DNA of 32,845 bases from an uncultured bacterium (GTDB lineage Bacteria > Nitrospirota > Thermodesulfovibrionia > Thermodesulfovibrionales > CALJEL01): assembly GCA_938074335.1 (NCBI GenBank), contig CALJEL010000037.1, positions 1 to 32,845 of the forward strand, read 5' to 3'. The notes below the pieces were generated by a model. That model was not told where the DNA came from. It saw only the letters and a list, made by a program, of their open reading frames with translations, and did no database searches. Shown here in pieces: positions 28,272 through 32,249 of this stretch. The translations under genes and the position numbers were made by a program. Each line of letters starts with the position of its first letter. Positions within the stretch are counted from its first letter, which is position 1.

Positions 28272-28396
28272 AGAAATTGATTATAAAAATACTGAGAGGT
28301 TTGAGTCAAGGAAAGGAATGCCTCTCTTTTGCCAGTAGAAACCTGGCAGACTGCTCAAAGTCTTGTCAGAGCAGCAGACAAACAATAGTTTAAATT

Positions 28397-28770
28397 ATGG
28401 TGCCCTATAAAGGCATTTCAGCACCATTCTATCAGCAGTTCAGGGAATGGAAATGATTATCTCATTTAACCTCAATTGCTGATAGAAATGCATTTTTAAT
28501 GGCGGGGGCTGCCTCAAAGCCTTCTTAGACCAGCAGAGCAGTAGTGCAGTAGAGCAGTAGTTTTTATTAAGGAATTTTTTAAATTATTATTTGACTGCTG
28601 CGCTGCTGCTCTGTTGCTCTGCTGCTCTATTAAGGTGTCGCAGGCGGGGTCCCCAGAAAATCGTCAGATTTTCTGGGGTGCTATATTGCCTTTAAAGCAC
28701 GGGGTGAAGACAAGCTTCACCCCGTGAACCCCAAAATATCGGCATCCCCCGCCATTCCTATCGGCAGTTT
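28397..28770. repeat. Composite hairpin-rich intergenic repeat, copy C (nested inverted repeats)
   Basis: CTATCAGCAGTT (28429-28440)/AATTGCTGATAG (28474-28485); AATGGCGGGGG (28498-28508)/CCCCCGCCATT (28746-28756); CCCCAGAAAATC (28651-28662)/GATTTTCTGGGG (28667-28678); CACGGGGTGAAG (28698-28709)/CTTCACCCCGTG (28715-28726); terminal CTATCGGCAGTTT (28758-28770). Confidence 0.75.
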
Positions 28771-28809
28771 AGGGTTTAAGGTTCTATCTGGAGATAATAG
28801 TCAGCATTC

Positions 28810-29949
28810 ATGTTATCCTATTATATGCCCTTTTATCTATCAAAATATGCCTGTCTTAAATGGCTTGAAAAGCCCTGTGTATATCATATTAAAAGAGATG
28901 AGCTCTATGAACTTGATATAAAGGCCTTTGAATTTTTGGAAAAATGTCATAAGGGCTGTGAAGGCGATAATGAGGAGTTTATAAACTATTGCATTGAAGA
29001 AGGGATTCTCAGTCATGTAAAAGATGCCTCCCAAAGACCTCCTGTTATTAAATCTCCAGAACCTTCTTTGAGGTACCTTGAGCTGCAGATAACAGAGAGA
29101 TGTAATCTGCGATGCAGGCACTGCTATATAAAGGAAAACAGACCCATAGAGCTGACCTTAAAAGATATTGAAAAGGTCTTAAAGGAGTTTGAGATGCTTC
29201 AGGGTCTGAGGGTCTTGATAAGTGGTGGTGAACCACTTCTTCATTCTGAGTTTGAAAAATTTAATGAAATACTGCCAGAGTTTTTCCTTAGAAAGGTCTT
29301 ATTCACCAATGGTATACTTCTTAACAGAGAGATTTTAAAAAAACTCAATGTTGATGAGATACAGATAAGCATAGATGGGCTCCAGAGAGGTCATGAGGCA
29401 CTGAGGGGGAAGGGGACATTTAAGAGGGTGATGAATGCCCTTGAGCTTACCATAAAAGAGGGATTTGATGTATCAGTGGCAACCATGGTTCACAGGGATA
29501 ATCTTGATGAATTTGACCAGATGGAAAACCTCTTTAAAGACCTCGGAATAAGGGAATGGAATGTGGATGTACCCTGTGCCACCGGAAGATTGAAATTGCA
29601 TCCCGGTTTTCAGTTAAAACCTGAGGAGGCAGGAAGATATCTGAGATATGGTTTTGGAGGCGGTATCCATTCATCCCTTGAGGGCTTTGCCTGTGGACTG
29701 CATCTTATGGCAGTGATGGCAGATGGAGGGATTGCAAAATGCTCCTTCTATGGAGAAAATCCTGTTGGCACCATAAAAGATGGTTTAATGGAATGCTGGA
29801 CCAGGATAAGGCCGGTCAGGCTTGAAGAGCTCAAATGCGACTGTGAATACATAGATTCATGTAGAGGTGGTTGCAGATACAGGGCAAGGCTTTCAGGAGA
29901 TGAATACGGTAAGGACCCTTATAGATGTGAGGTGTATAAAGAGGGCTGA
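28810..29949 (+). CDS. Radical SAM/SPASM enzyme, candidate peptide (RiPP) maturase
   Basis: CNLRCRHCY 4Fe-4S motif, ISGGEPLLH; SPASM-type C-terminal cysteines ACGLH...KCSFYGENPVGTI...KCDCEYIDSCRGGCRYRARL...RCEVYKEG; N-terminal extension of about 90 aa. Start may be 28810 or 28825. Confidence 0.93.
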   Translation: MLSYYMPFYLSKYACLKWLEKPCVYHIKRDELYELDIKAFEFLEKCHKGCEGDNEEFINYCIEEGILSHVKDASQRPPVIKSPEPSLRYLELQITERCNLRCRHCYIKENRPIELTLKDIEKVLKEFEMLQGLRVLISGGEPLLHSEFEKFNEILPEFFLRKVLFTNGILLNREILKKLNVDEIQISIDGLQRGHEALRGKGTFKRVMNALELTIKEGFDVSVATMVHRDNLDEFDQMENLFKDLGIREWNVDVPCATGRLKLHPGFQLKPEEAGRYLRYGFGGGIHSSLEGFACGLHLMAVMADGGIAKCSFYGENPVGTIKDGLMECWTRIRPVRLEELKCDCEYIDSCRGGCRYRARLSGDEYGKDPYRCEVYKEG

Positions 29950-29995
29950 AATACTCTTATTTATGGTATAATACTTTCGAAAGGAGGTGTTAAAA

Positions 29996-30058
29996 ATGAC
30001 AATCAAGAAATTAACAAAGAAGACAGCAACTACCTGTAAATGTAAAAGCTCATGTTAA
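29996..30058 (+). CDS. Putative 20-aa Cys-rich precursor peptide MTIKKLTKKTATTCKCKSSC
   Basis: ATG at 29996 preceded by AAGGAGGTG (29981-29989) with about 8-nt spacing; TAA at 30056-30058; starts 47 nt after the rSAM stop; followed by a hairpin. Below the ORF-track length cutoff. Confidence 0.7.
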   Translation: MTIKKLTKKTATTCKCKSSC

Positions 30059-30065
30059 ATATTTT

Positions 30066-30093
30066 AGAAGGGTAGGATTACCCCTACCCTTCT
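30066..30093 (+). terminator. Hairpin terminator after precursor peptide ORF
   Basis: AGAAGGGTAGG-ATTACC-CCTACCCTTCT: 11-bp perfect stem, 6-nt loop; weak T-tail (TTAT), so efficiency uncertain. Confidence 0.6.
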
Positions 30094-30119: not shown

Positions 30120-30620
30120 TTATGCCCAGGGTGTACCTCCATCGACAATACTGTGCTCCTCCCACATGAACCAGTTTCCTGTATTTGAGAGGAAAAAATA
30201 GGTATTTGCAAAGACTGCATAATGTTGTTCTTCTTCTTTTACCAATCTCTCAAATAGTTTTCTCTCTTTATCTGTCTTTGCCTCTGATGCAGCCTTTTTG
30301 TAAAATTCTATGCCTTCATTTTCCATATCCTTGGCTATTCTGAAAGCCTCGAGCTCATCATCTGTTGCCTCTACCCTCTGAAGCATCTGGTCTTTCAATT
30401 CCTCAAAGACGGTCTTGATCCTTTTCATAGGACTGACATCTTCAGGTTTGATGTCCATACCCTTTATAAGCTCCTCAATCATCTGAAGATGTCTCTTTTC
30501 ATCCTCTGCAATACTGAGAAACATCTTCTTACCAGCTGGATGCCTCGCCTTTCCTGCAGCCTCCTTATAAAATTTAATGGCATCAGTCTCCATCTTCCTT
30601 GCTATCTCCAGTGCATTCAT
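30120..30620 (-). CDS. Ferritin-like/rubrerythrin-type di-iron protein
   Basis: MNALEIARKMETDAIKFYKEAAGKA...EDEKRHLQMIEEL...MENEGIEFYKKAASEAK...KEEEQHYAVF; start at 30620 preceded by GGAGGG; the track extension to 30677 overlaps the upstream gene. Confidence 0.85.
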   Translation of the reverse strand: MNALEIARKMETDAIKFYKEAAGKARHPAGKKMFLSIAEDEKRHLQMIEELIKGMDIKPEDVSPMKRIKTVFEELKDQMLQRVEATDDELEAFRIAKDMENEGIEFYKKAASEAKTDKERKLFERLVKEEEQHYAVFANTYFFLSNTGNWFMWEEHSIVDGGTPWA

Positions 30621-30631
30621 ACTTTGCCCTC

Positions 30632-31042
30632 CTATTCTGTAAAATATCCGAGTTTTTCCATCTCCTTTATCACCCACTCATCCTGAGCAAGTTCTTCATC
30701 AAGTCTTGTCCTTATGTATTCCTTCAAAAAACAATAAACAAGCCTCTTCTTTATGCTATTCAGTGTATCTGCTGGATTGTTCACATTGTCCTTAAGAGAC
30801 CACCTTACAAAAAGACCATTAATTATACCATTTAGTATCTCATCTTTTATATCAGACTGAATTACCATAATAAGTGAGCCGTCCTCTGATATGAGCTTCA
30901 GGAACTGTCCCGGCTCTGAAAGCTCGAACTTTCTGTCTTTTGCCCATTCTTTTATATCAGGCACATAATCTATCCTGAAGATGAAATATTCTTTACCAAG
31001 TGCTTTCAATATATCATCGTAGTCCTTCTGTATAAATATCAC
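30632..31042 (-). CDS. Conserved-looking protein of unknown function (136 aa)
   Basis: Intact ORF between SOD and the ferritin-like gene; no motif recognised. Confidence 0.65.
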   Translation of the reverse strand: MIFIQKDYDDILKALGKEYFIFRIDYVPDIKEWAKDRKFELSEPGQFLKLISEDGSLIMVIQSDIKDEILNGIINGLFVRWSLKDNVNNPADTLNSIKKRLVYCFLKEYIRTRLDEELAQDEWVIKEMEKLGYFTE

Positions 31043-31051
31043 CCTTCCCTC

Positions 31052-31630
31052 CTATTTAAGTCTTGCCTCCACAGTTTGCCAGTCAATATTTTTAAAAAAT
31101 GCCTCAATGTAGTCAGCCCTTTTGAGGCCATAGTCAATCATGAAGGCATGTTCAAAGACATCCATTATTAAAAGTGGATTACATCCTGAGGGATGTCCGG
31201 TATCGTGTTCATTTATCCAGAAATTGATAAGCCTACCATTTGTTAAATCCTGATACAATACTGCCCAGCCAATTCCCCTCATTGTGCCTGTTGTCTTAAA
31301 ATCCTTCTCCCAGTTTTCATAGCTTCCGAAGGACTCTATAATTTTCTTTGCCAGCCTGCCCTCTTTGTTGAACTGACCTCCACCTCCAAGATTTTCAAAA
31401 TAATATTCATGAAGCCTCATGCCATTGAATTCCCAGCCAAGCCTTCTCTTGATCTCTGCATATTCAGGTGTTCCAGCCCTGCCATCTTTAAGCATTGTAT
31501 CAAGTGTATCAAGGAGTTTATTTGTATTTGTTACATATCCCTGATACAGGGTAAAATGATTTTTTAGGAGAGTTTCGCTGAATCCATTCATACCTATAAG
31601 TTTTGAATAATCCTTTGCGGTATATGTCAT
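31052..31630 (-). CDS. Superoxide dismutase (Fe/Mn family)
   Basis: KNHFTLYQGYVTNTNKL...MRLHEYYFENLGGGG...INEHDTGHPSGCNPLLIMDVFEHAFMIDYGLKRADYIEAFFKNIDW. Confidence 0.93.
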   Translation of the reverse strand: MTYTAKDYSKLIGMNGFSETLLKNHFTLYQGYVTNTNKLLDTLDTMLKDGRAGTPEYAEIKRRLGWEFNGMRLHEYYFENLGGGGQFNKEGRLAKKIIESFGSYENWEKDFKTTGTMRGIGWAVLYQDLTNGRLINFWINEHDTGHPSGCNPLLIMDVFEHAFMIDYGLKRADYIEAFFKNIDWQTVEARLK

Positions 31631-31640
31631 AAGGCCCTCC

Positions 31641-32249
31641 TTATTTACTGAGTTTGATGGTTATATCTGCAAGCCTCTTACCAAAGGCCCTGCAGATATT
31701 TGCCTCATTCTCATCTATATCTCTCATGTTATCAGCACCAGCTACATGCCCCGGGCCATAGGGTGCACCGCCACCCTTTGTGAGATAAAGATCAGGCACC
31801 GAATAAGGAACACCAACAATCACACACCCCAAGTGAAGAAGTACTGTCATTAATGAAAGTATAGTTGATTCCTGACCTCCATGAAGTGTACCTGTTGAGA
31901 CAAATACGCCAGCAGGCTTTCCCTCAAAGACCCTGTTCATCCAGAGTGGTCCAAGCTGGTCTATAACATTCTTTAACTGGGAACAGACATTTCCAAATCT
32001 TGTTGGTGTTCCGAAGGCATAGGCTGATGCATCTTTGAAATCATCAAGGGTAACGATTGAAATATCCCTTTGCATCTCAGCACCAGCCTTCATATCAGGC
32101 CTTGACTGAATAACAGACTCTGGAATTAGCTCAGGTGCCCTTCTTATAACAGGCTCTATACCCTTAACCTGGCTCACACCCTCTGCAACAAATTTGGCCA
32201 TCTTATAGACATTGCCAAAGGTGCTGTAATAGACAATTAAAAGTTTCAT
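31641..32249 (-). CDS. WrbA-like flavodoxin-fold NAD(P)H:quinone oxidoreductase
   Basis: LLIVYYSTFGNVYKMAKFVAEGV...FGTPTRFGNVCSQLKNVIDQLGPLW...KPAGVFVSTGTLHGGQESTILS. Confidence 0.92.
   Translation of the reverse strand: MKLLIVYYSTFGNVYKMAKFVAEGVSQVKGIEPVIRRAPELIPESVIQSRPDMKAGAEMQRDISIVTLDDFKDASAYAFGTPTRFGNVCSQLKNVIDQLGPLWMNRVFEGKPAGVFVSTGTLHGGQESTILSLMTVLLHLGCVIVGVPYSVPDLYLTKGGGAPYGPGHVAGADNMRDIDENEANICRAFGKRLADITIKLSK

Follow-up and report, generated by a model that had tools for sequence, protein, structure and literature searches.

A radical SAM/SPASM enzyme and a co-inherited 20-residue cysteine-tailed peptide gene in Nitrospirota genomes

Enzymes that join an RRE to a radical SAM core and a SPASM region are a main source of new peptide chemistry; to our knowledge, very few peptide-derived cofactors have been described. 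In the PqqA/PqqD/PqqE system, the precursor is about 23 amino acids in length and sometimes unlinked, and the product is the redox cofactor PQQ. The SCIFF peptides, by comparison, are about 45 amino acids in length and contain six cysteines. Mycofactocin (MftA/B/C), also a redox cofactor, involves a short precursor, an RRE and a SPASM maturase (PMC3023750).

Here we analysed a stretch of 32,845 nucleotides (the window), which is a single contig (C37; CALJEL010000037.1) of a 2.2 Mb genome of an uncultured Nitrospirota bacterium. A preliminary description had paired a 379-residue radical SAM protein (rSAM1), carrying CNLRCRHCY and a C-terminal SPASM-type cysteine array, with a cysteine-rich open reading frame of 20 codons that follows it, with a strong Shine–Dalgarno sequence and a hairpin 3′ of the stop, and had proposed a RiPP system. 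These features are confirmed, and the RiPP reading is supported by rSAM1 orthologues that have the small reading frame, by purifying selection, by an RRE fold and by the absence of any NCBIfam family at its cut-off. Taken as a whole, we consider it probable that the locus represents an undescribed RRE/SPASM RiPP family with a near-invariant core that is cross-linked, stays in the cell, resembles a cofactor or metal ligand and acts in oxygen defence; the parts of this reading carry different weights, given below. Searches of NCBIfam and of the open-access literature revealed no such system, and the literature searches also gave nothing on the tail string or on radical SAM RiPPs of Thermodesulfovibrio. 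The features of the locus are collected in Table 1.

Table 1 Features of the locus and its neighbours, with positions in the window
Feature	Position	Strand	Evidence
rSAM1, RRE + radical SAM + SPASM peptide maturase, 379 aa	28810..29949	+	PF04055, E 8e-25; 85 orthologues; model; Foldseek
RRE domain, about residues 1–68, predicted leader binder	28810..29013	+	Model and PDB fold matches, weak E-values
CNLRCRHC, SAM [4Fe-4S] cluster motif, C98/C102/C105	29101..29124	+	Cys invariant in 85 orthologues
SPASM seven-Cys array, C295/C311/C343/C345/C351/C355/C373	29692..29928	+	Conserved in a profile alignment (85 orthologues)
Extended −10 promoter TGGTATAAT of the peptide gene	29964..29972	+	Sequence; TGNTATAAT upstream of homologues
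Small predicted hairpin overlapping the Shine–Dalgarno sequence, degenerate counterpart of relatives' tandem hairpins	29973..29988	+	−4.6 kcal/mol
Strong Shine–Dalgarno sequence AAAGGAGGTG	29980..29989	+	Sequence
Precursor peptide gene, 20 aa, MTIKKLTKKTATTCKCKSSC	29996..30058	+	Homologues and coding constraint
Tail T-C-K-C-K-x-S-C, near-invariant, putative core	30032..30055	+	Conservation; CKCKxxC-stop pattern in 93/98 rSAM1 genomes
Terminator-like hairpin 3′ of the stop, 11-bp stem	30066..30093	+	−19.1 kcal/mol, z −5.2
Rubrerythrin-family protein, convergent neighbour (context, outside the pathway itself)	30120..30677	−	PF02915, E 1.5e-20
Superoxide dismutase (context)	31052..31630	−	NF041312, E 1e-32
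WrbA-type NAD(P)H:quinone oxidoreductase (context)	31641..32249	−	NCBIfam, above cut-off

Anatomy and fold of the enzyme

rSAM1 has the CX3CX2C radical SAM motif within CNLRCRHCY. Its C-terminal cysteines (C295-x10-G-x4-C311 ... C343-x-C345-x5-C351-x3-C355 ... C373) follow the SPASM arrangement CX9-15GX4C-CX2CX5CX3C-C with one spacing off, CX1C for CX2C, and a CXC is likewise marked in SkfB and PqqE (PMC6231123). The first six cysteines of the array do not vary among the 85 orthologues, and conservation of C373 is 90% or more. The SPASM Pfam model gave no match to rSAM1 at E ≤ 1. The in-frame stops (TAA/TGA) indicated for some orthologues are, in those inspected, terminal artefacts with no recoding.

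The AlphaFold2 model of rSAM1 (pLDDT 93.6) was matched over its whole length by RiPP maturase folds in Foldseek, with SkfB, CteB, SuiB, TigE and ChlB among the best and EpeE also matched, and a PDB profile search ranked SkfB first. Residues 1–85, modelled alone at pLDDT 87.7, adopt a PqqD-like RRE fold, which the preliminary description had named as a check; their best PDB match is TbiB1 with leader peptide (TM 0.63, probability 1.00, E 0.06), and the other leading matches (including 6jx3, SuiB and LynD/TruD) are mostly RREs. The weak E-values are expected, owing to the small size of the domain. That the enzyme might fall in an already-modelled radical SAM family is not borne out: the listed NCBIfam scores of the rSAM1 of the window are far below every cut-off of the radical SAM equivalogs, and none of the 85 orthologues brought a family close (best member E-value, 1.7e-33).

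The same matches bear on the chemistry. SuiB, which makes a Lys–Trp link, and the epimerase EpeE are among the Foldseek matches, as would suit an epimerase or a C–C or other non-thioether maturase acting on the same peptide. However, the best match in both fold and sequence is the sactisynthase SkfB, and the tail has no Trp, Tyr or Phe while its three invariant cysteines point to sulfur chemistry; a non-thioether maturase therefore seems unlikely to us, and we favour thioether formation with modest confidence. The likeness of fold to SkfB suggests that the bond may be of the sactipeptide type, from Cys sulfur to an alpha-carbon.

A constrained, co-inherited peptide gene

The peptide reading frame begins 46 nt past the rSAM1 stop (ATG, 29996–29998; TAA, 30056–30058), and co-occurrence and coding constraint across Nitrospirota genomes identify it as a real gene. 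Its putative leader half in the window is MTIKKLTKKTATT. The family consensus is M-x-I-K/R-K-V-x-K-x4-T-CKCK-x-SC, with a length of 19–21 amino acids in all real members. Pooling of all loci gave 124 distinct coding sequences and 108 distinct peptides; one pooled sequence (L165) is a chance match to the tail pattern and no real member, and matches in unrelated genomes, which come without leader and Shine–Dalgarno sequence, are also due to chance.

Invariance of CKCK and SC is in part the search criterion itself. Residues outside the pattern are also conserved in the 113 aligned coding sequences (I3 in 111, K5 in 110 and K/R8 in 112), and T13, which was in the pattern of one search only, is kept in 111. 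Third codon positions are free to vary, and dN/dS is about 0.27 in the leader half, which was not used for finding members, and 0.05 in the tail, a value partly due to the selection of the set. The 20 codons are thus under the purifying selection that the preliminary description had named as a check.

Among 61 genomes of the order Thermodesulfovibrionales, rSAM1 is present in 43, always as a single copy, the tail pattern in 42, both in 41 and neither in 17. In the 296 genomes sampled from the phylum, 93 have both, 5 have rSAM1 only, 2 have the pattern only and 196 have neither (Fisher p ~6e-68, not a literal value because the genomes are related); gains and losses occur inside several families. 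The pattern CKCKxxC-stop was thus detected in 95 of the 296, almost only in rSAM1 carriers, and the reversed pattern, used as a control, in 0 of the 61 and 1 of the 296. A short precursor with a leader and a conserved core is therefore co-inherited with the enzyme, and the predicted cysteine-tailed partner accompanies 41 of 43 rSAM1 orthologues in the order and 93 of 98 in the phylum. Linked peptide genes always lie downstream of rSAM1 and are co-directional; often, the peptide gene is on another contig or hundreds of kb away, and co-occurrence even when unlinked argues against mere neighbourhood. We infer with high confidence that rSAM1 modifies the peptide.

Two sister genomes with rSAM1 (G039, locus L101, and G297) yielded no recognisable peptide, including in one-mismatch and leader-codon searches, and two others (G014, L326, and G287, L327) have the peptide without rSAM1. 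Beyond Nitrospirota, the peptide with an adjacent rSAM1 (47–49% identity) is present in deltaproteobacterial metagenome-assembled genomes (L173 and L211) and in an ‘uncultured bacterium’ (L238); nothing was found in the viral contigs searched. One ‘Proteobacteria’ genome (L166) has two peptide copies, and at L247 the rSAM1/peptide unit is duplicated in tandem.

A further SPASM protein, rSAM2 (about 325 amino acids, without an RRE), is encoded near some of the loci. With its profile (A4), true members score at E<1e-58 (61 genomes) and so stand apart from other radical SAM proteins, at E ~1e-33. rSAM2 is present in 59 of 98 genomes with rSAM1 versus 2 of 198 without it (p 5e-33, phylum sample), and one of these two is G287, which has the peptide; the genome of the window encodes it elsewhere, on contig C24. 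An enzyme that tracks rSAM1 in about 60% of genomes means that the pathway first envisaged as minimal is not strictly one of two genes. rSAM2 may also have a substrate of its own. No other conserved partner gene was found in the neighbourhoods; the TPR-ispE-prs-rplY-pth and HD/HEAT neighbourhoods, considered as partners, look like lineage synteny.

Expression signals and genomic context

The motif TGNTATAAT lies upstream of 64 of 120 homologous peptide genes, versus 0.65 expected in shuffles, which indicates that the peptide gene is its own transcription unit, even beside rSAM1. In the 80 nt 5′ of the start, hairpins with an A-N-G/T-A-A/G pentaloop number at least one in 65 of 121 peptide genes and at least two in 39 of 121 (shuffles, 5%), and the second hairpin overlaps the Shine–Dalgarno sequence. 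In 31 two-hairpin leaders, compensatory changes occur at every one of the six pairs of the first stem, and the covariation score of 0.65 falls to 0.19 or less when the partners are slid; as these leaders were chosen for their pairing, they overstate the share of paired cells, and it is the diversity of compensating pairs that is informative. The leader is not represented by any Rfam family. The lineage of the window keeps the element only as a weak counterpart (12 of 200 shuffles are as good), and the hairpin 3′ of the stop was not picked up by a strict T-tail terminator scan. Leaders in Thermodesulfovibrio (for example, L059–L063, L178, L201 and L231) carry a series of three hairpins, all with the loop AUGAA, ahead of the Shine–Dalgarno sequence.

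In genomes that carry the element, a covariance model matched strongly ahead of the peptide gene. Its sole other convincing site lies upstream of a TonB-dependent receptor gene in G011 (C76, L318:1001-1044), and a weaker homologous tandem-hairpin site at a gene of the same type was found in G023 (C5, L320:1001-1043); these sites hint at what the leader senses.

An own promoter, a structured leader and a terminator-like hairpin would also suit a regulatory leader reading frame or small RNA that is no substrate at all and that co-occurs with rSAM1 through regulation of it. We regard this as very improbable, as conservation is frame-specific, with free third positions, and the gene is so often remote from rSAM1.

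In the window, the peptide gene is followed on the opposite strand by rubrerythrin-family, superoxide dismutase and WrbA genes (Table 1), an oxygen-defence context; the 136-residue protein between the rubrerythrin-family gene and the superoxide dismutase gene (30632-31042, − strand) has no Pfam or NCBIfam match. In at least 19 of 43 rSAM1-carrying genomes, spread over 8 families, some component has a rubrerythrin-family gene at a distance of no more than 10 kb, versus 1.8 expected from the same listed matches. The association is weaker than these raw numbers suggest, because 24 of the 43 have no such neighbour among the matches listed and the genomes are related. In Thermodesulfovibrio, rSAM2 lies in a cluster of Fur-family, ferritin, flavodiiron, rubrerythrin, FMN-reductase, rSAM2, ABC-ATPase (SufC-like) and SufB genes.

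Such iron-protein surroundings (rubrerythrin, ferritin and SufB), and a CxCx3C motif with lysines that is a plausible metal ligand, would suit a metal-binding or thiol peptide, like a small metallochaperone or metallothionein, that relies mainly on its free cysteines, with rSAM1 modifying it little or acting elsewhere. We judge this improbable: the peptide co-occurs tightly with a SPASM maturase predicted to bind leaders, and its two tail lysines, although part of the search pattern, never vary, whereas metal binding alone would tolerate arginine or other residues.

No gene for transport, immunity or proteolysis is conserved in the rSAM1/peptide neighbourhoods examined, in line with the initial observation of neither a transporter nor a dedicated protease in the window. 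Many sactipeptides from RRE/SPASM maturases are antimicrobial, for example the SkfB product (PMC6231123), and a secreted antimicrobial or signalling peptide would have such precedent. Against it stand these gene-poor neighbourhoods and a core that is near-invariant across the phylum and encoded by a single-copy, chromosomal and frequently unlinked gene; we consider secretion quite improbable. The invariant tail together with the missing export, immunity and protease genes argues for an intracellular product and not a bacteriocin.

About 20 loci (for example, L203:6222-6575, − strand) have a conserved 118-residue protein without a Pfam match, divergent beside rSAM1. The intergenic region ahead of rSAM1 (28272-28809) is rich in repeats, with 42-nt arms (28520-28561/28594-28635), direct repeats of 8-nt period and several further inverted repeats.

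Proposed pathway and comparison with known systems

We propose that the peptide gene would be transcribed on its own, from the promoter described above, into a short mRNA with leader hairpins over the Shine–Dalgarno sequence that would set the level of the peptide apart from that of the enzyme. The RRE of rSAM1 would bind the basic N-terminal half (x-I-K/R-K-V-x-K). Next, the radical SAM core, together with the auxiliary clusters, would act on the T-C-K-C-K-x-S-C tail; most likely, the sulfur of at least one of its cysteines would be bonded to carbon in a neighbouring residue, as a thioether. Where present, rSAM2 would probably catalyse an additional step. The near-invariant product would most likely remain intracellular and act like a cofactor or bind metal. 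We put forward its intracellular, cofactor- or metal-ligand-like nature tentatively, and its role in defence against oxygen and oxidative stress with similar reserve.

A bolder and rather doubtful extension is that the TCKCKxSC peptide, once modified, serves anaerobes as a new cofactor of peptide origin against oxygen; two SPASM enzymes would produce it from a mini-gene that stands alone, and the tandem-hairpin leader of this gene would be a new cis-regulatory RNA. Such a cofactor, comparable to PQQ or mycofactocin, could be a redox carrier or a metal or Fe–S ligand. A short, invariant and often unlinked precursor, spread across much of an anaerobic phylum and some deltaproteobacterial lineages, looks like housekeeping and not like a weapon. 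With 20 residues and one or two enzymes, the chemistry is directly testable by co-expression, and the oxygen-defence context offers a phenotype to look for.

Among described families, the GeoRSP and WgkB-type SPASM enzymes are among the best NCBIfam matches of rSAM1, but its scores of 67–95 bits compare with cut-offs of 400–650. SkfB, the sactisynthase of the sporulation killing factor SkfA, shares the RRE, the radical SAM core with SPASM/Twitch and the CXC; in contrast, rSAM1 conserves a complete seven-cysteine array and has a putative 20-residue substrate with three tail cysteines, its loci show no export or immunity genes, and SkfB is not among its best NCBIfam families. CteB/CteA and the SCIFF maturases, which form thioethers in six-cysteine peptides, are similar in their RRE and SPASM regions, cysteine-rich peptide and housekeeping-like distribution; the peptide here is less than half as long, with three cysteines, and the SCIFF model TIGR03974 (cut-off 425 bits) lies outside the 25 best NCBIfam matches of rSAM1, the 25th of which scored 57.8 bits. 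The PQQ and mycofactocin models also score low (TIGR02109, 61.6 versus 381 bits; TIGR03962, 75 versus 265 bits); the peptide has no Tyr, and so no Glu-Tyr or Val-Tyr core, the RRE is fused to rSAM1, and no known client dehydrogenases were identified. What the locus shares with these two cofactor pathways is a very short precursor, an RRE, a SPASM maturase, a conserved core and a precursor gene that is sometimes unlinked.
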